From positions 1-28,798 of the forward strand of contig NYZA01000097.1 of NCBI GenBank assembly GCA_002686955.1: a stretch of 28,798 nt of DNA. The letters are read 5' to 3'. The stretch's first letter is position 1, and each line of letters begins with the position of its first letter. Shown piece by piece: positions 1 to 26,486 of the stretch. This stretch comes from Gemmatimonadota bacterium. GTDB lineage: Bacteria; GCA-2686955. Both the position numbers and the translations under genes were made by a program. Below the pieces are notes generated by a model that saw only the letters and a program-made list of their open reading frames with translations, made no database searches and was not told the DNA's origin.

Positions 1-1263
1 CTCTCATCAGTCGGTCGTGCCGCGTTCGTCGCTGTCCTTGTAAGTCTCGGCACGGCCCGAGCGAGTGCATCGGAGAGCCTGGCGGATCTCGTGGCGTACA
101 CCCTTGAACAGAACGTCGACATCGAAGCGCTGAGGGCACAAGTCGACGCCCTGGAGCACGAGGAGGTCCGCGCGGGAGCCTGGAAAGACCCTCTGATGAC
201 GATCGGCTATCAAAACGTTCCCGCGACATCTCTCTCGCTTGGCGACGATCCGATGAGCATGCTCGCCGCGCGCATCGGCCAGGAGATCCCCTTCTTCGGC
301 AAGACGCGTAGAAGGAAACGCGTCGCACGATTCGCGACCGAAGCAGCGCGATGGAAGACCGAGGAAAAGGCACTGCAAATCGGAGCATTGGTCAAGCGTC
401 TCTACTACGAGCTCGGATTGACCCGGCAGTTGCGCGCGATCACCGCTGAGCATGTCGGACTCATCGAGCGACTCCTCGATGCTGTTCGGATCAAATACGA
501 GGTCGGTCAAGCGGACCAGCACGACGTGCTTCGACTCGAAGTGCTTCGCGATCGACTCAAAGACGACCTCAACGACTACATCGCGGAAGACCGGCAACTC
601 ACTGCCCTAATGAATCAGACTTTGCACCGAGAAGCGATGACCTCCATCGCCACGCCGGAGGAATTCGAAATCCCTGACCTCTCGCACTCCGTCGACTCAT
701 TGCGCCGGATCGCAATTGAATCCCGTCCCGCCCTCAGCCAACTCGATGCAGTAGTTGGCCAGCACGAAGCAGCCGCTGATCTGGCCCGATACGAAACGAT
801 TCCCGACCCGACGGTGTTCGTACAGTACGGTGCACGCAGCCGGCTCGACAATCGGTTGGCTGGCGATGATCTAATCACCGTGGGCCTGAGTTGGCGGCTC
901 CCGGTCTTCTATCGCGCTAGGAATCGAGCGTCCGCCGAATCCGCCGCTGCAAAAGCCCTATCCGCGAAGGCTCGCAAGGCCGCCCTGCTGGACGAGATCG
1001 GGAGCGGCTTGGAACATGCTTTGGCGGGCTGGGAGCGCGCCGCGCAGAAGATCGAGACCTATCGGGACCACCTTGTTCCTAACGCCCACCGGGTACTGGA
1101 CGCGACATTTACGAGCTATCAAGTGGACCGCGCCGACTTTCTTTCCCTCTTCGAGGCCGAGCTGGATCTGTTGAATTTCGAGAAGGCCCTTCGCATTACC
1201 GCCGTCGATCTGCTCGTCGCGCAAGCCAGGGTCGAGTCGATTATCGGGAAGGACTCCCCATGA
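1..1263 (+). CDS. TolC-family outer-membrane efflux factor (CusC-like), 5' partial
   Basis: Outer-membrane channel subunit of a tripartite efflux system. The frame is open to the first base of the window and the residues before the GTG at 91 look like the end of a signal peptide (hydrophobic AAFVAVLVSL followed by ARASA), so the real start lies upstream and GTG 91 is not the start. About 420 residues are visible. The protein has long amphipathic helical stretches rich in Glu, Arg, Leu and Ala, typical of the TolC/OEP fold, and a 'GQEIPFFGKTRRR' segment near residue 100 that resembles the conserved 'q.iP.fGK' of CusC/CzcC-like proteins. The stop overlaps the next start as ATGA (1260-1263), so it is translationally coupled to the adaptor. 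The function in metal efflux is inferred from the two following genes; the family assignment itself is firm. Confidence 0.88.
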   Translation, partial: LSSVGRAAFVAVLVSLGTARASASESLADLVAYTLEQNVDIEALRAQVDALEHEEVRAGAWKDPLMTIGYQNVPATSLSLGDDPMSMLAARIGQEIPFFGKTRRRKRVARFATEAARWKTEEKALQIGALVKRLYYELGLTRQLRAITAEHVGLIERLLDAVRIKYEVGQADQHDVLRLEVLRDRLKDDLNDYIAEDRQLTALMNQTLHREAMTSIATPEEFEIPDLSHSVDSLRRIAIESRPALSQLDAVVGQHEAAADLARYETIPDPTVFVQYGARSRLDNRLAGDDLITVGLSWRLPVFYRARNRASAESAAAKALSAKARKAALLDEIGSGLEHALAGWERAAQKIETYRDHLVPNAHRVLDATFTSYQVDRADFLSLFEAELDLLNFEKALRITAVDLLVAQARVESIIGKDSP

Positions 1264-2780
1264 GGATTGCCGCGACCATATGCATGACGACAGGCCTCGC
1301 CTTTTCGCCGCTCGGCCAGGTGACCGTCCACGCTCAAACACAAGACCACGGCGCGCACGAAGCCACGGAGCGGACTGTCTACAGCTGCCCAATGCATCCG
1401 CAGATCGCGCAGAATGAGCCGGGAGAGTGCCCAATCTGCGGCATGACGCTGGCACACCGGTCCGTTGCCGAAAAGACCCCAAGCTATTCGGTTGGAGCGC
1501 CCAAGCCGAAATATGACGAGGCGCGCGATATCAAACACTGGGCAGCACCAATGGATCCCACGTACATCTCCGATCAACCCGGAAGATCGCCGATGGGGAT
1601 GGACCTCGTGCCGGTGTACGAAGATGGCACCGGAACTTCGTTCGTGACGATCGACCCGACAGTAGTCCAGAACATGGGAATCCGTATCAAGCGAGTGGAA
1701 CAGGGAACAGTCTTTCGCCACGTTCGCACGATCGGCACAGTAGAGGTCGCGGAAAACTTGCTCTCGGTTGTCAATCTGCGCTACTCAGGCTGGATCGAGC
1801 GCCTATACGTCGACGAGACCGGTGCACTGGTCGGGAAAGGGCAGAAGCTCTTCGACATATACTCACCGGAGCTCGTGAGCGCACAGGAGGAGTATCTGTT
1901 GTCGCTACGTAGCGCAGGACTCAACTCGCCTTTGGCGAAAAGCGCGCGGAGGCGCCTCGAATACTGGCTGGTCTCCGGCGACACCATCGAGCGGATCGAG
2001 AGGGAGAAAGAAACGTCGCCCACGGTGACGGTTGTCGCGCCCCAGTCCGGATACGTTCTTCACAAAGACGTCGTCCAGGGTGCCCGCGTCACAGCCGGAG
2101 TGGATCTCTATCGAATCGGAAGCCTCGACAAGGTGTGGGTCAACGCTGAGGTTTACGAGTTCGACGCCCCATGGATCGAATTGAGACAGCGCGCAACTAT
2201 GGAGCTGTCTTATGTTGGAGGCGATCCGATCGAGGGCAGCGTCTCATTCGTCCATCCCACTCTTAATCCGCAATCCCGTACGCTCACGGTGCGCTTGGAG
2301 TTCGACAACCCTCGGCTTCTCTTGAAGCCGGGGATGTTCGCCACCGTCGAGATCGAAACACGCCCTCGCGAAGATGTGGTAGTCGTGCCCGCCGAAGCGA
2401 TCATCCATTCGGGCAAGCGACAGCTCGTCTTTGTCGCTCTGGCACTCGGCCGTTATGAGATGCGGGAGGTGAGGACCGGTGTGGTTGGCGATCGCCAGAG
2501 AACGGAGATTCTATCCGGATTGCAAGCCGGCGAGCGTGTTGTGACCTCCGGTCAGTTCTTGCTCGACTCCGAGAGCCAGCTCAACGAAGCCGTGCAGAAG
2601 CTCCTCGCCTCGCGCCTCCACGCGGCCGACCAGGGAGCCTCGGCACCCGATGATAACGAGGACAGCCCCGGCCAAGGTTCGTACTGGACCTGCGGCATGC
2701 ATCCTCAGGTCGTCGAAGATGGTCCGGGCGCTTGTCCTCTCTGCGGAATGGACCTGATCGAGAGGTCGAGGCAGCCATGA
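1260..2780 (+). CDS. CusB-like RND efflux periplasmic adaptor with N- and C-terminal heavy-metal-binding domains
   Basis: Periplasmic membrane-fusion subunit linking the RND pump to the outer-membrane factor, 506 aa. A signal peptide (about residues 1-25, ending HAQ) is followed by a heavy-metal-binding domain (HMBD/YHS-like) with C43-P-M-H, then C57-P-I-C60-G-M. A second, Cys-poor HMBD-like copy lies at 93-120 (APMDP, then SPMGMDLVPVY). The adaptor core (about 125-450) has the usual CusB pieces: 'SGWIERLYVDETGALVGKGQ' barrel-sandwich half, 'YSPELVSAQEEYL' hairpin and beta-barrel. A third HMBD closes the protein: C478-G-M-H and C492-P-L-C495-G-M. Methionine/cysteine-rich HMBDs are known from Cu/Ag adaptors and P1B ATPases. 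The start is set by the ATGA overlap with the TolC-like gene, and the stop overlaps the pump start in the same way. HMBDs at both ends are unusual; most homologues known to me carry them at one end. Substrate Cu(I)/Ag(I) is inferred. Confidence 0.93.
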   Translation: MRIAATICMTTGLAFSPLGQVTVHAQTQDHGAHEATERTVYSCPMHPQIAQNEPGECPICGMTLAHRSVAEKTPSYSVGAPKPKYDEARDIKHWAAPMDPTYISDQPGRSPMGMDLVPVYEDGTGTSFVTIDPTVVQNMGIRIKRVEQGTVFRHVRTIGTVEVAENLLSVVNLRYSGWIERLYVDETGALVGKGQKLFDIYSPELVSAQEEYLLSLRSAGLNSPLAKSARRRLEYWLVSGDTIERIEREKETSPTVTVVAPQSGYVLHKDVVQGARVTAGVDLYRIGSLDKVWVNAEVYEFDAPWIELRQRATMELSYVGGDPIEGSVSFVHPTLNPQSRTLTVRLEFDNPRLLLKPGMFATVEIETRPREDVVVVPAEAIIHSGKRQLVFVALALGRYEMREVRTGVVGDRQRTEILSGLQAGERVVTSGQFLLDSESQLNEAVQKLLASRLHAADQGASAPDDNEDSPGQGSYWTCGMHPQVVEDGPGACPLCGMDLIERSRQP

Positions 2781-5700
2781 TCGAGTGGGTCATCGCCGCA
2801 AGCGTACGCAATCGCTTCTTCGTCATCATCGTCACGTGCATTGTCATCGCGCTCGGCATCTGGGCCATGCTTGATACAGCAGTGGACGCTATTCCAGATC
2901 TCAGTGACGTCCAGGTCATTATCTACACCGACTACGCCGGCCAATCTCCACAGGTCGTGGAAGACCAGGTCACCTATCCCTTGACAACGGCGATGCTCGC
3001 GGTGCCCTACGCGAAGGACGTGCGAGGCTACTCGTTCTTCGGATTCTCCATGGTGTACGTCATCTTCGAAGACGGCACCGATCTATATTGGGCGAGATCA
3101 CGCGTACTGGAGTACTTGAACTTCGCCAGTAGTCGACTTCCGTCCGCGGTCAGTCCTCAGCTCGGCCCGGACGCCACGGGCGTCGGTTGGGTTTTCGAAT
3201 ACACGCTCACCGATTTCGGCCCGCGCGCCTCTATTCTTCGGCGGAAACTGGACACGGACGGATCCGGCATTGTTGAGGACCACGAGCTTCCCCCCCCCCT
3301 CGATTCCAGCAACGTCGGTGGTGAGAACAGAGCTGTCTACTCGCCCGATCGTCTCGCGTCGCTTTTTGAGACCAGCGATCCACCCGGATCGGCTCCACCG
3401 GACCGATTCGTTGAAGAATCTACACATTATCTTGTTGAGACATTCGATCGTGATCGCGACGGTAAAATCTCACGTTCGGAGCTGGCATTGGCCGCGAACT
3501 TCGAGGGCATCGATCTCTCGGAGCTACGATCCGTGCAAGATTGGTATCTTCGCTATGAGCTGATGAGTGTGCCAGGCGTCTCCGAGGTAGCATCTGTTGG
3601 CGGGTTTGTTCGACAGTACCAGGTCGAAGTAGATCCTGAAAAACTCCGCGCTTATGGAGTTCCGCTAGCCAAGGTAAAGCGGGCCATTCAACGCAGCAAC
3701 ATGGATGTCGGAGGTCGGCTTCTCGAGATGGGTGAGACCGAGTTCATGGTTAGAGGGAAAGGGTATTTGGGCTCGTTGGAAGACCTCCGGAGTGTTCCGA
3801 TCGGCGGCGATATGATCTCGCATACGCCGATTCTGCTAGCCCAAGTAGCCAATGTGCACATGGGTCCGGAGCTTCGCCGCGGCATCGTCGAAATGAATGG
3901 CGAAGGTGAGGTCGTTACAGGGATCGTCATCATCCGATTCGGCGAGAACGCCCTCGACGTTATCGAGCGGGTGAAGACCCGATTGGAGGAGCTCAAGCTC
4001 GGACTGCCGATGGGACTCGAAGTTCACGTCTCTTACGACCGATCCAGTCTGATCCGTCGAGCGATCGATACGCTCAAGACCAAGCTCATCGAAGAGCTTC
4101 TCGTAGTGGCTCTGATTTGCGTTCTATTCTTGTTCCATTTTCGCTCGGCACTCGTAGCGGTATTCACGCTTCCAGTAGGGATCTTGATGGCGTTCATCAT
4201 CATGCGACTCATTGGAATCAACGCGAACATAATGAGTCTCGGTGGAATCGCGATCGCCATCGGAGTAATGGTCGATGCATCCGTGGTGCTGGTCGAGAAC
4301 ATGCACAAGCATAAGGAAAGGGATCATGGTCTAGCTCAGGCCGAACTGGTCATCACGGCATCACGAGAGGTGGGCCCGGCCCTCTTCTTCTCCTTGCTCA
4401 TCATCACGGTTAGCTTCCTACCTGTCTTCAGTCTGGAACAGCAAGAAGGGCGGCTCTTCTCCCCCCTTGCCTACACAAAGACCTTCGCGATGGGATCGGC
4501 GGCAGTCCTGGCGGTGACGATTATCCCAGTATTGATGTACTACTTCGTTCGCGGCCCCGTGCGCCCCGAATCGAAAAACCCGATCAGCCGCTTCTTCATC
4601 TTTCTCTACCGCCCCCTCATCGATGCGGTTCTGCGCTGCCCGAAGACCACGATCGCTTTGGCAGCGCTGCTGACGCTAGTCACGTGGCTTCCCTTTCGAT
4701 CTCTCGGTAGCGAGTTCATGCCTCCCTTGAACGAGGGAGATCTCCTGTATATGCCTACCACTCCGCCGGGGATTTCAATAACCAAGGCGCGCGAGCTGCT
4801 GCAACAGACCGACAAAATTATCGCTTCACACCCGCAAGTCAAGCACGTGCTAGGCAAAGTAGGACGCGCTGAAACCGCTACTGATCCCGCTCCTCTCTCG
4901 ATGATCGAAACAACGATCCTTCTCACGTCACCCGAGACGTGGCCAGATGGAGTATCTATCGAAGACATCATCACGGAACTCAACGCAATGATCCAGTTCC
5001 CGGGGCTCACGAACGCCTGGACGATGCCTATCAAGACACGCATCGACATGTTGGCGACAGGCATCAAGACCCCCGTCGGCATCAAGCTCCTCGGGGACGA
5101 CCTGGGTGAGCTCAGCGCGGTGGGCGAGCAGATCGAAGCGGTGGTTAGAGAGCTCCCCAACACTCAAAGCGTCTACTCCGAACGGGTGGTCGGAGGAAAC
5201 TACATCGACATCGACATCCGCCGACAAGACGCTGCTCGCTTCGGCCTCACGATCGCCGATGTGCAAGAGATCATCATGAGCGCCATCGGGGGGATGAACG
5301 TGACCTGGACCGTGGAGGGACTCGAGCGCTATCCGGTCAACCTTCGATACCCACGAGAGCTTCGCAATGACATCGACAAGCTGCGGCGCGTCGCGGTGCC
5401 GACGCCTATGGGTCATACCGTACCGTTGGGATCGATCGCGGATCTCAGCATTGCCAAAGGCCCGCCGGCGATCAAGAGCGAGAACGCCCGGCTCACTGCC
5501 TGGATCTACGTGGATCTAAAGACCTCGGATGTAGGTGGATACGTCGAGGGCGCGCGCAAAGCTGTCGCCTCACAGGTCGCCCTACCCGAGGGCGTATCGA
5601 TCGTCTGGTCCGGCCAGTACGAATACATGGAACGTGCGAACGAGCGTCTGTCGGTCCTCATTCCTCTGACCCTGGCGATCATCTTCCTGTTGCTCTACGT

Positions 5701-6181
5701 ACACTTTCGCAACATCACTGAATCGCTCATCGTCTTGCTATCACTTCCCTTCGCCTTGGTCGGCGGCATTTGGCTGATGTGGATCTTCGATTTCAATCTG
5801 TCGGTCGCGGTCGCTGTCGGCTTCATCGCGCTGGCGGGCCTGGCGGCCGAGACCGGAGTGGTGATGCTGGTGTACCTGGACGAGACATATGAACGGTGGC
5901 GCCGAGAGGGGCGCTTGAGATCGCTCGCCGACATCCGGTTGATCATTGTCGAGGGAGCGGTCGATCGCGTACGACCCAAGTTGATGACAGTCTCGACGAC
6001 TACCATAGGCCTGCTCCCCATCATGTTTGGAACCGAGACCGGAACCAGGATCATGAAGCGGATCGCTGCTCCGATGGTTGGCGGTCTGATCTCATCTACC
6101 GTTTTGACTCTAATCATCATCCCGGCCGTCTATCTCTTATGGATGCGCTTCGTACACCGCAACGATCTTCCACGCACGTAG
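2777..6181 (+). CDS. CusA/CzcA-family heavy-metal RND pump with an inserted EF-hand pair
   Basis: Inner-membrane proton-driven RND transporter, 1134 aa from the ATG at 2777, chosen because it overlaps the adaptor stop as ATGA; the frame is open slightly further upstream but those residues are not family-like. N-terminal TM1 (MIEWVIAASVRNRFF), the TM4 proton-relay segment 'GVMVDASVVLVEN' with its Asp and Glu, and the C-terminal TM block are all present. Three methionines lie where CusA has its Cu/Ag relay residues: PLSMIETT, RIDMLATGIK and SAIGGMNVTW, which favours Cu(I)/Ag(I) over Zn/Co; this mapping is from memory of CusA, not from an alignment. Odd: after 'GVGWVFEYTL' about 100 residues (148-248) are inserted before 'LRSVQDWYLRYEL', carrying two full 12-residue EF-hand loops (D159-E170 and D224-E235). 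The remainder matches ordinary CusA closely. A ten-C tract lies inside the insert. Confidence 0.95.
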   Translation: MIEWVIAASVRNRFFVIIVTCIVIALGIWAMLDTAVDAIPDLSDVQVIIYTDYAGQSPQVVEDQVTYPLTTAMLAVPYAKDVRGYSFFGFSMVYVIFEDGTDLYWARSRVLEYLNFASSRLPSAVSPQLGPDATGVGWVFEYTLTDFGPRASILRRKLDTDGSGIVEDHELPPPLDSSNVGGENRAVYSPDRLASLFETSDPPGSAPPDRFVEESTHYLVETFDRDRDGKISRSELALAANFEGIDLSELRSVQDWYLRYELMSVPGVSEVASVGGFVRQYQVEVDPEKLRAYGVPLAKVKRAIQRSNMDVGGRLLEMGETEFMVRGKGYLGSLEDLRSVPIGGDMISHTPILLAQVANVHMGPELRRGIVEMNGEGEVVTGIVIIRFGENALDVIERVKTRLEELKLGLPMGLEVHVSYDRSSLIRRAIDTLKTKLIEELLVVALICVLFLFHFRSALVAVFTLPVGILMAFIIMRLIGINANIMSLGGIAIAIGVMVDASVVLVENMHKHKERDHGLAQAELVITASREVGPALFFSLLIITVSFLPVFSLEQQEGRLFSPLAYTKTFAMGSAAVLAVTIIPVLMYYFVRGPVRPESKNPISRFFIFLYRPLIDAVLRCPKTTIALAALLTLVTWLPFRSLGSEFMPPLNEGDLLYMPTTPPGISITKARELLQQTDKIIASHPQVKHVLGKVGRAETATDPAPLSMIETTILLTSPETWPDGVSIEDIITELNAMIQFPGLTNAWTMPIKTRIDMLATGIKTPVGIKLLGDDLGELSAVGEQIEAVVRELPNTQSVYSERVVGGNYIDIDIRRQDAARFGLTIADVQEIIMSAIGGMNVTWTVEGLERYPVNLRYPRELRNDIDKLRRVAVPTPMGHTVPLGSIADLSIAKGPPAIKSENARLTAWIYVDLKTSDVGGYVEGARKAVASQVALPEGVSIVWSGQYEYMERANERLSVLIPLTLAIIFLLLYVHFRNITESLIVLLSLPFALVGGIWLMWIFDFNLSVAVAVGFIALAGLAAETGVVMLVYLDETYERWRREGRLRSLADIRLIIVEGAVDRVRPKLMTVSTTTIGLLPIMFGTETGTRIMKRIAAPMVGGLISSTVLTLIIIPAVYLLWMRFVHRNDLPRT
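3218..3520 (+). other. EF-hand pair inserted in the periplasmic domain of the RND pump
   Basis: Codons for residues 148-248 of the CusA-like protein. Loop 1 is DTDGSGIVEDHE (3251-3286) and loop 2 DRDRDGKISRSE (3446-3481). Both have acidic or Ser ligands at positions 1, 3, 5, Gly at 6, Ile or Val at 8, and Glu at 12, the canonical calcium-binding pattern. The segment between them is Pro/Asp/Ser-rich. Ordinary CusA proteins run directly from 'WVYEYAL' to 'LRSLQDW' with only a short turn here, so the segment is a domain insertion at a loop of the porter region. Calcium binding is inferred from the motif. Confidence 0.8.
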
Positions 6182-6208: not shown

Positions 6209-6736
6209 ATGTGCAGTCACGCGATCATAGCGAGTTCCCTCTCTCTTCTCTTCGCGATTTCTCAGGCGTACGCATCTGAGTCGGCGAACGCCTTCGATAA
6301 GGCCATGGCACCGCTACTGACTCACTACCTGAGTGCGCACGAAGCACTATCCGACGACTCCCAAGCCGGGGTGAAAAACGCGGCGAAGGCGATCAAGAAA
6401 CTAGCTACACAGCTTCCAGCGGTCTCGACCGTCGTGCAACATTCGGAACACCACCGTGGCTTGCCCGCGCGGATAGCGGGAGCGGCCGATGCCCTCGGCA
6501 AAGCCGCGACGCTCAAGGAAGCCCGCGCGGCTTTCAAGGATCTCTCGAGGCCCTTGGCCATGTGGGGCACGATGGCAAGACCTTCGAGCACCGACGTGGC
6601 CTTCTGCTCTATGGCCAAAGGCAGTTGGTTACAGAAGGAAGGCCCGATCCGCAACCCGTACTACGGCAAGAGCATGTTGCGCTGCGGCGTGGTTGTCGGG
6701 GGCGTGAACCATAGACCTGAGGCCGCGGCACGGTAG
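6209..6736 (+). CDS. Periplasmic DUF3347-domain protein of the metal-efflux operon
   Basis: 175 aa, signal peptide at about 1-22 (LSLLFAISQAYAS). The N-terminal half is an alpha-helical bundle of the DUF3347 type (LLTHYLSAHEALSDD). The C-terminal half has the family signature FC133SM135AKGSWLQ, then NPYYGKSM156LRC159G. DUF3347 is commonly found fused to, or beside, CusB-like adaptors and copper proteins, where the Cys/Met pairs are thought to bind Cu(I); here it is a separate protein 27 bp behind the pump gene. Its ribosome site is GGAGA about 8 nt before the ATG. The usual C-P-M-A motif reads C-S-M-A here. It is most likely a periplasmic metal-delivery or scavenging accessory; the exact role is inferred. 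Confidence 0.85.
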   Translation: MCSHAIIASSLSLLFAISQAYASESANAFDKAMAPLLTHYLSAHEALSDDSQAGVKNAAKAIKKLATQLPAVSTVVQHSEHHRGLPARIAGAADALGKAATLKEARAAFKDLSRPLAMWGTMARPSSTDVAFCSMAKGSWLQKEGPIRNPYYGKSMLRCGVVVGGVNHRPEAAAR

Positions 6737-6971: not shown

Positions 6972-6999
6972 GGTTATTGCGGCTCCGCCCGCAATAACC
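6972..6999 (-). terminator. Perfect 11-bp stem-loop at the stop codon of the M6 protease gene
   Basis: GGTTATTGCGG (6972-6982) is the exact reverse complement of CCGCAATAACC (6989-6999), with a 6-nt loop. The stem starts at the last base of the minus-strand stop codon (6999-7001), so it lies immediately at the 3' end of that mRNA. There is no clear U-tract, so it may act as an RNA-stabilising 3' hairpin or part of the adjoining repeat cluster rather than as an intrinsic terminator. Confidence 0.5.
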
Positions 7000-9761
7000 T
7001 ATTTGAGAAGTACCATGCGCCGCGTCACGATCTCTTCCGGCGTCTCCAATCGGTAGATATACACACCGCTCGCCAGGGCCAGCCCCCCCTCGCTCTTGCC
7101 GTCCCAACGAACTGAATGCCGTCCCGCCGGCAGCACTCCCTGGTGGAGAGTGCGTACGAGGGCCCCGCGAAGATCGTACACACCAAGCGACGCATTCATC
7201 TCCTCGGAAAGTTCGAACGCGATTAGCGTGCTCGGATTGAAGGGATTCGGGACGTTGTCGGCGAGGGTCACCCGCGACGGCGGAGGCGGAGTATCGCCGC
7301 CTTCGATTCCCGTGGTGATCGATTCCCAAGCCACGACCGACCCGATGATATCGGCCACCAGAACAGCGTCTTGGCCTAGACTCAGATCGAAGCCGAAGGT
7401 GGTGGCCTTGTGGGTCTTCGACCCGGGCAGTCCATCGTAGGTCACGACCGCCGTCTCGTCGGTGGGTGTGTAGAACATCGCGGCCTCGGCGCCGGTCAGC
7501 GGCGTGAACGAAGACGGAGAGTCTTGCACCATCAATAGGGGGCGATCGAAGAACGGTCCAAGGATTTCATGACCATCGACGCCGGATGCGACGGGGGCGT
7601 TGGTGTCGGTGCTCATGCTGGACAGATGCAACACGTCGGTGAAGAAATCGCTTCCGGCGAGGTCCTCGTCGAAGTTCTGCCCGATCAAGATGAAATTGAC
7701 GCCACCCGCGATGATCGGTGTCAGTGAGGCCTGATCGGAAGCGGTCAGCGTCTCGCTGTTCTCCTCTCCTGTCGCCCAAATAATCGTTGCGTTCCCCGTG
7801 GCGAAGGGGTCTTGAACCGTTCCGGAAGCGGTCTCGACCGACCATTCATCCACTACCACATGTCCCGCGTCGACCAGGGCCTGGCGGAGCACATCTTCAG
7901 ATTCCTCGCCGCCGTCATCGTCGACAAGGAGGACCGCGGGCCAGTCGACCACAAGCGTGAAGCTCGTATGCGACACATATTCATGACCCAGTGGGAAGGT
8001 GGTGATCTCCAGATCGAACTGTACGACATCAGCCTCGTCGAGTGACCCGACCTGCAGCGTGAACGGGTCGGCCGCGTTGTCGCCCTCATCTCCACCGGCC
8101 AGGGTTCCGAACGACCCGGTGTCGTCCAAGATGGTCACGTTGGTGTTTTCGGTCGTTATCACGGCGGTGATGTTCGGCGCGTTCCCCCAAACGCTCGCCA
8201 AAGTGAGAATCAAGTCGAAGGTCTCTCCGGATTCCCCTCTACCATCCCCGTCTCCGCCTACACTGTCGTCGCTCAGGCTAGATACCATGTCGAGTACCGG
8301 TATCGAGCGGCTCACATCGAACACCGCGCTCATCGTGTCGCCGGAATCGGATATCTCGAGGACCGCGCATTCCGAGTCGGCGTCTCCACCGGTGTAGGTC
8401 CGTGAGTTTGGCCAAGTGCTGTAGTGGAAATTGCGAACGTTGTAGTAGCCGGGGAAAGGATCTCCCCAATCGCCGCTCACGCCGTCGCGGAGCTCGAGAT
8501 CGAAGCTGCCCGGAACACTGTCCGACTCCATATAGGCCCACTCATTCCAATAACAATCCGCCTCTTCGACCGTGGTGAGGTAGTGAGGACCCGAGTTGAT
8601 CGGGTTCTTGCCTTCGTTTTTGTTGGTCGTCCGCGCCTCGTCGACATGCCAGATGAGCAGACCGTCGCCCGGGATATGTTCGTCGAAAAGGACCTTCTGG
8701 CGGTTCTCGACCAGGAAGAACTCGTGTGCGGGAGCAGTGGCCGTAGTCAGCTTGTAGATCACGTCGTGATCTTCGACGCGAGGTACATCGAAGGGGTTGT
8801 TCAGAATGTCGGTTTGTTCGATCACGATCGGATCGACCCATCCAAGCCACACTTTCGACCATGGGTCGAAGTGAACGGGGCGGGTTCCGCTGCCGGTCCA
8901 GCTCCCGGAGGCCATGACGGTCCAATCGCCGTTCCCGGAAGAGCTGTAGTCGGTATCGTACAGATCGGGAAGTCCCAAGACATGCCCGAACTCGTGCACG
9001 AAGACACCGATGGCGTTCGCCTCCGGTTCTGTCGTGTAGTCGCGGATGGTGACGCCGTCGGCCGTCGATACGTTCACGATTGACCGGTGAGACCAGATGT
9101 GGTCCGGATTGCCCGTGCTCTCGGCTCCCGGACCGGCGTGCACCAGGAAGAACGACTCGACCTTGCCGTCGGAGTCGGTGTCGTAGATCGAGAAATCGAT
9201 GTCGTCATCGGATATCGCGACCATATCGGCGATCAGGCCCGCCACCGACTTCGGTCCGCCGCCCATGCCGTAGTCGTCGTTTGTGTTCGGAATGCCGTCG
9301 GCGTTGCAGTAGTAGCCCGCCATGTTGTTGGGGGCCATGTACCAGACCACGGTGATACCACCGTCGAAGGTGAAGTTGCCGTAAGAGCACTCTGTGAAGT
9401 AGTCGTAAGCGCTCCCGGTTGGATGGGTCCCTCGCGAAAAGAGAAGGTCCTCGTAATGAGAAGGCGGATGCGCAGCTTGGTTGGCGGGTTCGTCGGGGAA
9501 CTCGACCAGGAAGACGAGAGAGTGGGACGAATCGCCGATCGCGGCGGTCAGACCTTGCCTGAAAGGCGAAGGGGCCCACTCGTTCGCTTCGAGATGTTGG
9601 GCGCTCATTTCGAGGAAATGCTCGAATCGGCCCTCGGCGCGCATCTTCTCGATCGCTTCGGGCCGGGCCTGGGGCATCGCGGTGGCTGGATTGGAGGCGG
9701 TGAGGGTGGCCAGCGCCGCGCAGGCGAACGCGAGACGGGTGGCGGCTTGCACTCGAGACAT
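6999..9761 (-). CDS. Secreted M6-family (immune-inhibitor-A-like) metalloprotease with FlgD/T9SS-like C-terminal domain
   Basis: Extracellular zinc endopeptidase, 920 aa from the ATG at 9761, which has CGGAG about 8 nt upstream; an ATG 36 bp earlier would put extra residues ahead of the signal peptide. Signal peptide at about 1-28 (FACAALATLTASNPATA). The M6 catalytic domain is at about 80-480, with zinc motif H256EFGHVLGLPD266 and 'TVMASGSW' after it, the Met-turn-like segment of these metzincin-like enzymes. Residues from about 485 to 600 look like an all-beta module, then a ThuA/GATase-like segment begins with 'LLVDDDGGEESEDVL'. The C-terminal 85 residues (NVPNPFNPSTLIAFEL…, DLRGALVRTL, RWDGKSEGGLALASGVYIYRL) are the FlgD-Ig/type-A sorting-like fold typical of secreted proteins in FCB bacteria, and probably direct export or surface attachment. 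It lies 94 bp downstream of the next gene on the same strand. Confidence 0.92.
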   Translation of the reverse strand: MSRVQAATRLAFACAALATLTASNPATAMPQARPEAIEKMRAEGRFEHFLEMSAQHLEANEWAPSPFRQGLTAAIGDSSHSLVFLVEFPDEPANQAAHPPSHYEDLLFSRGTHPTGSAYDYFTECSYGNFTFDGGITVVWYMAPNNMAGYYCNADGIPNTNDDYGMGGGPKSVAGLIADMVAISDDDIDFSIYDTDSDGKVESFFLVHAGPGAESTGNPDHIWSHRSIVNVSTADGVTIRDYTTEPEANAIGVFVHEFGHVLGLPDLYDTDYSSSGNGDWTVMASGSWTGSGTRPVHFDPWSKVWLGWVDPIVIEQTDILNNPFDVPRVEDHDVIYKLTTATAPAHEFFLVENRQKVLFDEHIPGDGLLIWHVDEARTTNKNEGKNPINSGPHYLTTVEEADCYWNEWAYMESDSVPGSFDLELRDGVSGDWGDPFPGYYNVRNFHYSTWPNSRTYTGGDADSECAVLEISDSGDTMSAVFDVSRSIPVLDMVSSLSDDSVGGDGDGRGESGETFDLILTLASVWGNAPNITAVITTENTNVTILDDTGSFGTLAGGDEGDNAADPFTLQVGSLDEADVVQFDLEITTFPLGHEYVSHTSFTLVVDWPAVLLVDDDGGEESEDVLRQALVDAGHVVVDEWSVETASGTVQDPFATGNATIIWATGEENSETLTASDQASLTPIIAGGVNFILIGQNFDEDLAGSDFFTDVLHLSSMSTDTNAPVASGVDGHEILGPFFDRPLLMVQDSPSSFTPLTGAEAAMFYTPTDETAVVTYDGLPGSKTHKATTFGFDLSLGQDAVLVADIIGSVVAWESITTGIEGGDTPPPPSRVTLADNVPNPFNPSTLIAFELSEEMNASLGVYDLRGALVRTLHQGVLPAGRHSVRWDGKSEGGLALASGVYIYRLETPEEIVTRRMVLLK

Positions 9762-9804
9762 GGGTAGTACTCCGGGTAGCTCAGGGGAGAAAGACAAGCA
9801 CGTG

Positions 9805-22411: not shown

Positions 22412-23086
22412 ATGCAGACCCTTAGACATGTACTCGCAGACCAGGCCGGCTTCATCGAGCTCGGCGCGCTCGTGGTCGACCTCATCCTTGCAGCTTTTTG
22501 CGCGGTCATTCTGAGTAAAACCTATACCAGGTGGGGGGACTCTTTTTCGAACAGAAGGAGATTTGCCGACAACTTTTTGATGGTAACGGTCGCGACCACG
22601 TTCATAATCGCTGTTGTAAAGTCCTCCTTGGCGCTGTCTTTGGGGCTGGTCGGCGCACTCTCCATCATCCGCTTCAGAACCGCCATCAAAGAGCCCGAGG
22701 AGCTCGCTTACCTCTTCATGGCGATCGGCCTGGGCGTTGGCTTCGGCGCCGACCAACCCATTATTTCACTCTTGGTTGCGGCGTTCATCGTCTCACTCAT
22801 CTGGCTGCGAAGGACTTTTCGCAGCGACGAGCGCAACGTTAATTTCCACTTGACCGTTGGTAGCCGTAGCGACAGAACTTTCAGCCTAGAACAGATCGTC
22901 GACATACTGAGGCCAAATTGCTCCCAGCTCGAGCTGGCTCGCTTCGACGACAACGCCGAGCAGTTCGAAGCGTCATTTTTGCTCGAGTTCAAGTCCTTCC
23001 CCAGCCTGAACAAGGCAAGAGCCTCTTTGCAACAGTTATCCGATTCAATCGAGATCACTTTTTTGAGCAATAGAGGGATCGGATAG
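22412..23086 (+). CDS. DUF4956 integral membrane protein
   Basis: 224 aa. Membrane segments are at about 17-37 (GALVVDLILAAFCAVIL), 52-70 (ADNFLMVTVATTFIIAVV), 72-86, and 99-130 (YLFMAIGLGVGFG, then IISLLVAAFIVSLIWL). The DUF4956 signature is complete: SLALSLGLVGALSIIRFRTAIKEPEELAYLF. A soluble C-terminal domain of about 90 residues follows, presumably cytoplasmic. DUF4956 genes are repeatedly found next to VTC-type polyphosphate polymerases and CotH-like kinases in bacteria, as here; a function as membrane partner is inferred from that association. GAGG about 7 nt upstream supports the start. It is first in a tight operon: the next ATG begins one base after its stop. Confidence 0.9.
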   Translation: MQTLRHVLADQAGFIELGALVVDLILAAFCAVILSKTYTRWGDSFSNRRRFADNFLMVTVATTFIIAVVKSSLALSLGLVGALSIIRFRTAIKEPEELAYLFMAIGLGVGFGADQPIISLLVAAFIVSLIWLRRTFRSDERNVNFHLTVGSRSDRTFSLEQIVDILRPNCSQLELARFDDNAEQFEASFLLEFKSFPSLNKARASLQQLSDSIEITFLSNRGIG

Positions 23087-23087
23087 C

Positions 23088-25733
23088 ATGCGCCTGCTGC
23101 AAGAAGAGCCACCAGGACGCTGGGCGGCGCCGCGACGTGCCACATTGGGCAGACGCACCTCCTTCCTCTTTGTCTCGGTCTTCTTCGTTCTGATGTTCTT
23201 CTTGGGCGCGTTGCTCTTATCAAAAACCGAACCGGGAATCCGTCATCGGATTAAGGCGCATGGACTACGCGGCGCCATCAAGCTCGACACCGCGCACCTT
23301 TCTCAGGTCCTCAAGGGTCAAACGCCACATGTTGATATTCCGCATATGGAGATCAGCATGAAGAAGGATGCGTATCGAAAGATCGTGACAAAGCGAGAGG
23401 AATCTCTCGGGAAGCCGATTTTTCTCACCAGTGCAGACGACTACGTGCGCGCCTTCGTAAGAGTTGGGGAGGATCTATCAGAAGTGAAAATGCGACTGAA
23501 GGGGGATTGGATCTTCCAACTCCAAGACAGCCAAAAATGGTCCTTCCGTATAGAGGTAAAGGGCGACGACAGTATTCTAGCGATGAAACGCTTTTCTATT
23601 CATCATCCCAGGAGCCGAAACTACATAGGGGAGTGGCTCCTGCACCGTGCCTTGAAGAGATCCGACGTCATCGCGCTGAGGTACGAGTTTGTGGATGTGA
23701 CTCTAAACAACCGAGATTTGGGAATCTACGCTATCGAAGAGCACTTCGAAAAGCGCTTGGTAGAGAACAATCGGCGCCGTGAGGGTCCCATTGTGAGGTT
23801 CAATGAGGACCTCTGGTGGAAGGATGCGCTGCAGTTCCACAATGCGCCGCCGGAAAGCAAAGGGACAGGCAGCAGAGATTTCATGGCCGCCAGCGTGGAT
23901 GCGTTCAAGACCACCGAGACACTCAACGATCCCGTCTTGGGTGAGCAGTTCATAACGGCCGCCAATCTGCTCGAGGCAACGCGCCTTGGACAGTTGACAG
24001 CGAGTGAGGCTTTTGATGTGGACCGAATGGCAACCTATGTTGCAATGCTGGATCTTTTTGGCGGCTGGCACGCGATCACGTTTTTGAATGTACGTTTCTA
24101 CTATAATCCCGTGACATCGCTGCTTGAGCCCATCGCTTTCGATGCCAACGCCGGCAAGAGAATCTCCTGGCTGATAGGCGAGGGCAGGCAGATCAACGAT
24201 CGAGAGGACGCCGGTTACAAAACGTTCAGAACCGTCTTGTTCAGCGATCCCGTCTTCTACAAGGCCTATGTTCGTGAGTTGCTACGCATATCCGACCCGA
24301 CCTGGCTAGACATATTCTTTGCTGAGATTGGAGATGAGCTGGACCAGAACCTCGCTATTCTGCGATCAGAGTTTACAGGATTCCCGTTTTCGCAAGCCAT
24401 CTACTATCAAAACGCGGAATACATACGAAGCATGTTGATCCCGTCGGCTCCAGCTGTGCATGCCTATGTCGAAGACCAGGAAGCAACCGCGCCGGGCAGA
24501 CTGCTGGTGCGGGCTGGCAACATTCAAAAGCTCCCGGTTGAGGTTTTGGGTTTGGGCTCGAAGAATAAAGACCATCTTTACGATCTCTCCGATCGAGAAG
24601 TCGTGCTTCAACCACGGTTGAGCAACGTTCATTACATTCCCATCGATATTGCCTTGACAGAGGATGCCGCCGTCACCGCTCTCGAGCCGCAGGATCTCTA
24701 CATGGAGTATCGGATTCTTGGGACTGGCTCCGAAGGACTACGGCAAATCGATCTATACCCGTGGCCATTCCTTGCGGAAGATTTTGCGGCGGACTATCTG
24801 GCGAAACGAACCCCCAACGTTGCGGACTTCGACTTCCTGGTCACGGACGAAAAGGAGCGCGAGATCCGAATCCAACCGGGTGAATGGACGCTCTATGAGA
24901 GCCTGGTGATCCCTAGTGGGTACCTGGTCCGTTGCGGAGAGGGCACGCAGATCAAGCTCACAAACGGGTCGAGCGTGATTAGCTACTCGCCGCTGCAGGT
25001 CATCGGAAGCGATGACGCGCCGGTGGTTTTCAGCGGGGAGGATGACGGGGGCGGCGTTATCTGTTTGAACGCCGAAGGCCTGACGACATTGGATCACGTG
25101 TTCTTCGAGGGGCTCGCAGCCCCTATTCGCGCCGCCGGCCAGCTCACAGGCGCGGTCACTTTTTACGAATCGAATGTGAACATCAGTCGCAGCCGTTTCG
25201 TTGGTGCCAGGTGTGAGGATGCGCTGAACATCGTGAGGTCGAATTTTCAGCTTCAGCAGTGCCTGATCGCCGACGCATTGTCAGACGGCTTGGACGTCGA
25301 TTTCGGAAGCGGCTCGATCCGCAACTGCTCCTTCATCGGTACGGGCAATGATGCGATCGATCTTGCAAATAGCAAGGCGATTGTCGAGGACTGCAACGTT
25401 GTGCGCGCCGGTGATAAGGGTCTGACGGTTGGCGAGGACAGCGAAGCGACGGTTCACAATCTCCGCGTTGCAGATAGCTTCATCGCTATTGGCAGCAAAG
25501 ACGCCTCGAAAGTAACCATAGACAGTCTGTCGGTAACACGCTGCGACTACGGACTTACCGCGTATCAGAAAAAGCCGGAGTTCGGCCCTGCAGAGCTGTC
25601 GGTCGAGGCGCTCTTGATTGAAGATGCGATGGTGGATGAGTTGCTCATAGAAGAGGGGTCTACGATTACCGTGGCCGGTGAGCTGCATACGGGTGCCGTG
25701 ACCGATGTCGTTGGCATTCTTTATCCGGAATAG
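23088..25733 (+). CDS. Membrane-anchored CotH-kinase-like protein with C-terminal parallel beta-helix
   Basis: 881 aa. A single N-terminal membrane anchor lies at about 25-46 (SFLFVSVFFVLMFFLGALLL) after a basic, Arg-rich cytoplasmic tail, so the bulk is outside the inner membrane. Residues about 95-460 resemble the CotH kinase family: 'MRLKGDW', 'KWSFRIEVKG', 'MKRFSIHHPRSRNYIGEW', 'LGIYAIEEHFEKRLVEN' and a DxN segment (EPIAFD352ANAG). CotH is an atypical protein kinase of spore coats. A linker domain follows, then about 600-875 forms a right-handed parallel beta-helix, with repeats such as 'SRSRFVGARCEDALNI', 'QQCLIADALSDGLDV', 'IRNCSFIGTGNDAIDL'. In VTC/DUF4956 loci such proteins are recurrent, but the substrate is not known to me. 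Its position between DUF4956 and VTC, with one-base spacing before it, implies joint action. Confidence 0.85.
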   Translation: MRLLQEEPPGRWAAPRRATLGRRTSFLFVSVFFVLMFFLGALLLSKTEPGIRHRIKAHGLRGAIKLDTAHLSQVLKGQTPHVDIPHMEISMKKDAYRKIVTKREESLGKPIFLTSADDYVRAFVRVGEDLSEVKMRLKGDWIFQLQDSQKWSFRIEVKGDDSILAMKRFSIHHPRSRNYIGEWLLHRALKRSDVIALRYEFVDVTLNNRDLGIYAIEEHFEKRLVENNRRREGPIVRFNEDLWWKDALQFHNAPPESKGTGSRDFMAASVDAFKTTETLNDPVLGEQFITAANLLEATRLGQLTASEAFDVDRMATYVAMLDLFGGWHAITFLNVRFYYNPVTSLLEPIAFDANAGKRISWLIGEGRQINDREDAGYKTFRTVLFSDPVFYKAYVRELLRISDPTWLDIFFAEIGDELDQNLAILRSEFTGFPFSQAIYYQNAEYIRSMLIPSAPAVHAYVEDQEATAPGRLLVRAGNIQKLPVEVLGLGSKNKDHLYDLSDREVVLQPRLSNVHYIPIDIALTEDAAVTALEPQDLYMEYRILGTGSEGLRQIDLYPWPFLAEDFAADYLAKRTPNVADFDFLVTDEKEREIRIQPGEWTLYESLVIPSGYLVRCGEGTQIKLTNGSSVISYSPLQVIGSDDAPVVFSGEDDGGGVICLNAEGLTTLDHVFFEGLAAPIRAAGQLTGAVTFYESNVNISRSRFVGARCEDALNIVRSNFQLQQCLIADALSDGLDVDFGSGSIRNCSFIGTGNDAIDLANSKAIVEDCNVVRAGDKGLTVGEDSEATVHNLRVADSFIAIGSKDASKVTIDSLSVTRCDYGLTAYQKKPEFGPAELSVEALLIEDAMVDELLIEEGSTITVAGELHTGAVTDVVGILYPE

Positions 25734-25796
25734 GGAGTGATTTGAATGCGCTCGCATCGAGGCTTTTCTGCGCTTTGCCGCCCTGGAGCGCTCTAG

Positions 25797-26486
25797 ATGC
25801 AAGACATTGTGGACCAAGGATTTCGCTACGAGCGCAAGTTCCTCGTTGAAGGACTCGACCGGCATCAAGTAGTCTGTTCGATCAAGATGCATCCTGGGAT
25901 GTTCTCCGAGATCTACCACCCACGATTCGTGAATAGCCTCTATTTGGATTCGGTGGGATTCGACAGCTATTCCGCAAACGTCACTGGCGTAGCGAAAAGA
26001 GAAAAGGCCCGCATCAGGTGGTATGGGGAGCGGACGGAGAGGATTTCGAAACCTGTGCTGGAGTTCAAGATCAAGCGGGGCTTCCTGGGGCGCAAAGACC
26101 GCTTTCCACTCGAACCTATTGTGCTCGGCGACGGCTTCTCGCCCAGCTACTTCAGGCGCTTCATCAGAGCACAAAAGCTACCGCCCGAGGTGAAGGCGTT
26201 TCTGGCGCAACTCAGTGTGGTGTTGTTGAACCGCTACCACCGCTCCTACTACCTGTCCGCGGACAAGAGATTCAGAATCACCATCGATACCCACTTCGAG
26301 TACTTCAGAATCTCCGGCTTGCACAACAAATTTTTAGCGCGACAAGCAGACCATAATAGTGTTGTTGTCGAGCTGAAATACGGTCCACAAGACGACTCTC
26401 GGGCCGAGAAGATCACCAGCGCGTTTCCATTCAGGGTGACGAAGAACTCGAAATATGTGGAAGGTGTGGAGCGCTTATGGGTTTGA
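25797..26486 (+). CDS. VTC-domain polyphosphate polymerase-like protein
   Basis: 229 aa, the whole being a VTC catalytic domain of the triphosphate-tunnel (CYTH-like) fold. Tunnel residues are readable in order: FRYE12RK14F, NSLYLD51, K70-A-R72-I-R74-WYGE, LE89FK91, LNR146YHR149SYY, ITID164T, VE192LK194Y, NS218K219Y220. In yeast Vtc4 this fold makes polyphosphate from ATP at the membrane. There is no SPX domain or membrane segment, so membrane attachment would come from the DUF4956 partner. GGAG about 9 nt before the ATG supports the start. The 63-bp gap after the CotH gene holds no promoter that I can recognise, so it is probably the third gene of the operon. Confidence 0.92.
   Translation: MQDIVDQGFRYERKFLVEGLDRHQVVCSIKMHPGMFSEIYHPRFVNSLYLDSVGFDSYSANVTGVAKREKARIRWYGERTERISKPVLEFKIKRGFLGRKDRFPLEPIVLGDGFSPSYFRRFIRAQKLPPEVKAFLAQLSVVLLNRYHRSYYLSADKRFRITIDTHFEYFRISGLHNKFLARQADHNSVVVELKYGPQDDSRAEKITSAFPFRVTKNSKYVEGVERLWV

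Follow-up and report, generated by a model that had tools for sequence, protein, structure and literature searches.

The periplasmic subdomain PN2 of CusA takes part in binding one CusB molecule, and D155 and R147 are named as its interface residues (PMC3637150). The length of the PN2 loop varies among HME pumps (PMC3637150). For one of the two CusB copies in CusBA, the membrane-proximal domain rests mostly against PC1 and its PN2 contacts are apparently lost (PMC6975555), so the two copies may not touch PN2 alike. Caulobacter CzrA with its 'Large Loop' is an HME-RND protein in which a longer PN2 loop is proposed to affect adaptor contact (PMC3637150). The pump described here resembles CzrA in this respect, although the two loops may differ in their exact point within PN2. 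However, the CzrA loop motif, GXPGXQXDGX3TX2GX2L, is not EF-hand-like, and CzrA, which lacks the CusA methionines, is a pump for divalent cations, while the present pump keeps the methionine triad. An EF-hand-type domain here takes the place of the short PN2 loop of E. coli CusA.

The window is a stretch of 28,798 nucleotides from a Gemmatimonadota bacterium (contig NYZA01000097.1, forward strand). Its cusA-type HME-RND pump gene occupies 2777..6181 (+) and encodes 1134 residues. The protein scores 1174 bits against TIGR00914 (cut-off 701), and the full-length model matches CusBA (4dop) with Z 48.6 and rmsd 5.2 over 988 residues at 51% identity; fold and operon context are shared with E. coli CusA. 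The order of the operon is OEP, CusB-like, CusA: a cusC-type outer-membrane channel with an OEP match (91..1263, +), whose 5' end is uncertain because the gene sits at the contig start, is followed by a cusB-type periplasmic adaptor with three HMBD matches (1260..2780, +). Neighboring genes overlap by 4 bp, and the start of cusA shares ATGA with the end of cusB. Directly 3' of cusA, a gene for a small DUF3347 / LIC13259-like protein (6209..6736, +) is perhaps a fourth member of the cus operon. Elsewhere in the window are an M6-type metalloprotease with a FlgD_ig / T9SS-like C-terminal tail (6999-9797, -) and adjoining genes for DUF4956, CotH-kinase with β-helix and VTC-domain proteins (22412-26486, +). 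Six other RND permeases encoded in this genome show about 22–31% identity to the pump, and none of the six is a second CusA-type copy.

The copper site and the proton relay are both intact. M573, M623 and M672 (E. coli CusA numbering) are all Met in the window protein, and the M672 column is Met in 8/8 insert carriers long enough to cover the position. The proton relay D405/E939/K984 is likewise D, E and K. The methionine relay of E. coli CusA, which includes the pairs M271-M755 and M410-M501, is not fully kept: at M271, M755 and M410 the window protein has L, N and L. The first two are not Met in nearly all insert-free homologs compared; M410 is Met in 71 of 72 non-carriers, versus Leu in 8 of 28 carriers and in the window protein. 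With these three positions changed, the protein is a CusA-type pump that does not match E. coli CusA in every detail. Judging by its sequence, it is a putative Cu(I)/Ag(I) exporter of the CusA (HME4) type.

The sequence-only reading had claimed about 100 extra residues in the periplasmic porter region, and this holds. The inserted EF-hand-type domain spans 3218..3511 (+), approximately 98 residues in the β1-α1 loop of PN2. The ACR_tran profile is split exactly here: the match to profile positions 3-143 ends at 3214 and that to 146-1019 restarts at 3503, leaving 288 bases between profile positions 143 and 146. The alignment with E. coli CusA proposed earlier gives the same picture, as phmmer matches the flanks on both sides and breaks where query residues 162 to 261 correspond to only a few CusA residues. 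Within the insert, EF loop 1 (DTDGSGIVEDHE; 3251..3286, +) has an entering helix just upstream and no full exit helix, and EF loop 2 (DRDRDGKISRSE; 3446..3481, +) is flanked by helices on both sides. A PROSITE-like EF-hand pattern matches twice in the window protein, compared with 0.006 matches expected per shuffle; none of 20,000 shuffles has two. When the insert is searched with its flanks, Pfam EF-hand_5 (31.6 bits, cut-off 25.9), EF-hand_1 (29.3 bits) and EF-hand_6 (28.6 bits) each match two stretches above their cut-offs, and on the whole protein all three fall just under them. Shortly after loop 1, ten consecutive C at 3290-3299 encode Pro-Pro-Pro; slippage may occur at this run, within a gene whose frame has to be kept.

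Predicted structures bear on how far the EF-hand description can be taken. AlphaFold2 folds the insert alone with pLDDT 86.1 and pTM 0.75. In the full-length 1134-residue model, ten-residue blocks of the insert reach about 78–95, compared with an overall mean of 77. The predicted order is helix 7-17, loop 1, a 3-residue turn, a β-hairpin, helix 49-56, helix 67-82, loop 2 and helix 92-99. Among the 50 matches listed, Foldseek finds EF-hand proteins nearly throughout, though at weak scores (best E 0.038, TM 0.32), and the top VIA matches are also EF-hand proteins, with a best Z of 6.0, which is middling by VIA's own note. DSSP assigns a strand at loop 2 and none at loop 1. The insert resembles the EF-hand superfamily (PF13202, PF00036, PF13405) in having two 12-residue loops with all ligands and a helix-loop-helix at loop 2. 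In a superfamily pair, however, the two EF-hands pack through a β-bridge between their loops, which lie about 36 residues apart, whereas here the distance is 65 residues in the window protein and 49–85 across the family, and the exit helix of loop 1 is truncated by a near-invariant Pro almost directly after the loop. A further difference is that the domain is embedded in a membrane pump. Thus, of the two complete EF-hands read from the sequence, both 12-residue loops and the helices of loop 2 stand, but loop 1 exits only into the 3-residue turn before the Pro, and the idea of a canonical pair finds no support. The confident fold and the EF-hand proteins among the best matches support an EF-hand-like fold for the model; they are not proof of a canonical pair.

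At least 31 CusA genes carry the insert, that of the window and 30 others, and the insertion point is identical in all 31 aligned. A scan of species genomes adds seven insert-bearing genes among 80 close relatives. For the wider search, a profile was built from eight inserts and applied to a genome sample of even draws, at most 400 per phylum. It matches in 2/2 genomes sampled from the phylum of the window, in at least 3 of 195 in the phylum of G002 (source of locus L010) and in at least 24 of 377 in the phylum of G003 (source of L011), to which the sources of L012, L013, L015 and L016 also belong; such carrier counts are lower bounds because the genome sample is partial and the scored candidates per genome were limited in large searches. 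Carriers therefore span three phyla, the small phylum of the window and two others, including genomes named Myxococcota. Their loci are labeled Myxococcota, Deltaproteobacteria, Proteobacteria and Gemmatimonadetes, and these labels may follow an older taxonomy. The profile has no match in 190 other relatives from other groups. The 297 genomes of the phylum of G009 give two weak matches, in frames of 144 and 235 residues that are not RND pumps. No free-standing donor domain is found in the window's own genome at E < 1. Spread of the insert on plasmids is without support, as the profile has no match among 72,556 plasmid records.

This distribution also bears on whether the insert is real. The window genome is a draft in 270 contigs, which leaves room for an assembly or annotation artifact, or for a chance motif match. 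Against this, the reading frame is open through the insert, its GC content (57.4%) is close to that of the remaining cusA gene (56.9%), and the same domain occurs at the same site in 30 genes of other genomes; we give an artifact a negligible chance. Assembly error is excluded because at least 30 other genes have the identical insert position and domain, and a chance motif is ruled out by conservation in these genes. Recent foreign insertion was considered as well and is ruled out by the overall GC, which is like that of the gene (GC3 is lower, 56% versus 70%), and by the position of an old event in the tree.

Within the insert, the ligand residues of the two loops are kept better than the remainder. 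In the alignment of 31 inserts, loop positions 1 and 12 are invariant (D and E) in both loops. Position 3 is D or N in every insert. At position 5, loop 1 has D, S or N, and loop 2 has D in 28/31. Of the 31 inserts, 30 have an acceptable residue at each of the eight positions that supply a side-chain Ca2+ ligand. The ligand columns (1, 3, 5 and 12 in each loop) have a mean conservation of 0.78, compared with 0.51 over the full insert and 0.43 in other polar columns. Drawing eight columns at random 20,000 times never reaches the ligand value, a ranking and not an exact probability because columns are not independent and the sequences are related. At position 6 of loop 2, 13 inserts have Gly and 18 have another residue. 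In seven carriers the stretch between the loops is longer by about 20 residues, which include an invariant C-x7-C-L and a GG; this addition may hold a disulphide or a metal site. From the ligand pattern we infer that the EF sites of the insert bind Ca2+. Divergent genes from three phyla retain the ligands, the framework residues and the insertion site, which indicates some selected role, and the conservation pattern implies that the insert is maintained by selection.

Trees built from CusA sequences without the insert place 28 carriers and seven non-carriers in one clade with full support; in a second tree the clade holds 26 carriers and the same seven non-carriers. The minimum number of changes on the free tree is two. 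A tree constrained to keep all carriers together survives the AU test (p-AU 0.29), so a single gain is possible, not proven. Because the inserts themselves are homologous, a single gain with at least one later loss explains the pattern most simply. Comparison with homologs, which the sequence-only reading had proposed as a check, thus yields at least 30 further genes with the insert at the same site and seven close homologs without it. These seven make the insert non-essential for a CusA-type pump. They also favor an alternative in which the ions only hold the fold of a local decoration and leave assembly and transport unaffected, and the variable PN2 loop length of HME pumps (PMC3637150) agrees with it. 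Retention of ligands, framework and site across the three phyla argues against such neutrality, and we regard it as an unlikely explanation.

The position of the insert suggests a link to the adaptor. By alignment it lies between R147 and D155 of E. coli CusA, with the R147 column ambiguous in the multiple alignment. A CusB-type adaptor gene adjoins the pump gene or lies shortly upstream in 26/26 carrier genes checked, the window included. An adaptor special to carriers was sought and rejected: HMBDs occur in the adaptors of pumps with and without the insert, and no EF-hand motif is present in the 94 adaptors scanned. With HMBDs present beside insert-free pumps too, the specific contact with adaptor HMBDs that had been suggested earlier finds no support, while a link to the adaptor as such remains plausible from the location between R147 and D155. 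E. coli CusB, by sequence reading, is without Cys-type HMBDs, whereas the window CusB has three HMBD matches. A per-column comparison of adaptors from carriers and near non-carriers, which is confounded by relatedness, gives no clear interface signature. Residue 230 of the window CusB is Arg in 26/26 carrier adaptors and in one of seven near non-carriers, which may reflect relatedness only.

Our preferred explanation, at a probability of roughly 45%, is that a Ca2+-stabilized insert domain shapes or stiffens the pump-adaptor contact. The periplasmic EF sites would usually be occupied by Ca2+, which would play a structural part. On the outer side of PN2 the Ca2+-loaded domain would then present a rigid, acidic surface, and this pad would pack on or beside the CusB adaptor and so stabilize or tune CusA-CusB docking. 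Counting against this explanation are the weak structural matches, the frequent replacement of the loop 2 Gly, the absence of a clear interface signature in the adaptors compared, the apparently lost PN2 contacts of one CusB copy in CusBA (PMC6975555) and the seven close homologs that do without the insert. The path of copper would be unchanged, along the usual methionine route, and the inserted domain would not be a copper carrier. Across the family the insert has a net charge of -2 to -12, contains 0–2 Met and mostly no Cys, and is poor in His as well. Because it is acidic and nearly without Met and Cys, it is unlikely to handle Cu(I).

The same composition bears on metal capture, in which the EF sites would bind a divalent or trivalent ion, either transported or toxic (Cu2+, Cd2+, Zn2+ or a lanthanide), and feed the ion to the pump or sense it. 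The protein is itself a metal pump, and EF-hands are able to take up hard cations besides Ca2+. The methionine triad for Cu(I) is intact in the pump, however, all-oxygen ligands are poor for Cu(I), and neither loop has the Pro at position 2 found in lanmodulin loops. We consider metal capture quite improbable.

Sensing or gating by Ca2+ is a different proposal, in which the sites would fill and empty as external Ca2+ changes and so turn the pump, or its assembly, on and off. The two sites are both conserved and have the Glu at position 12 that Ca2+-binding EF-hands have, and the insert adjoins the adaptor interface. But the two loops apparently do not form a canonical EF pair, the usual basis of cooperative switching, and periplasmic Ca2+ tracks the medium, where it is often high. 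Gating is possible, though improbable on this analysis. A bolder version, in which Ca2+ loading of the PN2 domain would control CusB docking and thereby couple copper export to external Ca2+, seems from the sequence decidedly doubtful. We know of no Ca2+-type allosteric control of an RND pump. The mitochondrial SCaMC and aralar/citrin carriers are EF-hand-regulated transporters and, like the window pump, have an EF-hand part fused to a transporter; they belong to an unrelated family and their EF-hands are terminal, whereas the present domain is inserted within a periplasmic subdomain.

Whether its ions stiffen the adaptor contact, as we prefer, or act otherwise, an EF-hand-type domain in a CusA-type pump is apparently undescribed so far. 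A literature search, mostly of papers outside subscription, found no published description of an EF-hand domain in CusA, RND or CzcA pumps, in agreement with the earlier statement that no such system was known. The usual picture of an RND pump shows a constant complement of periplasmic subdomains, and the PN2 graft departs from it. Lying beside adaptor-binding residues, the graft provides a natural way to ask whether the contact between pump and adaptor may be regulated or stabilized by an ion that is unrelated to the substrate, and the close relatives without the insert make comparisons with and without it possible within one family.
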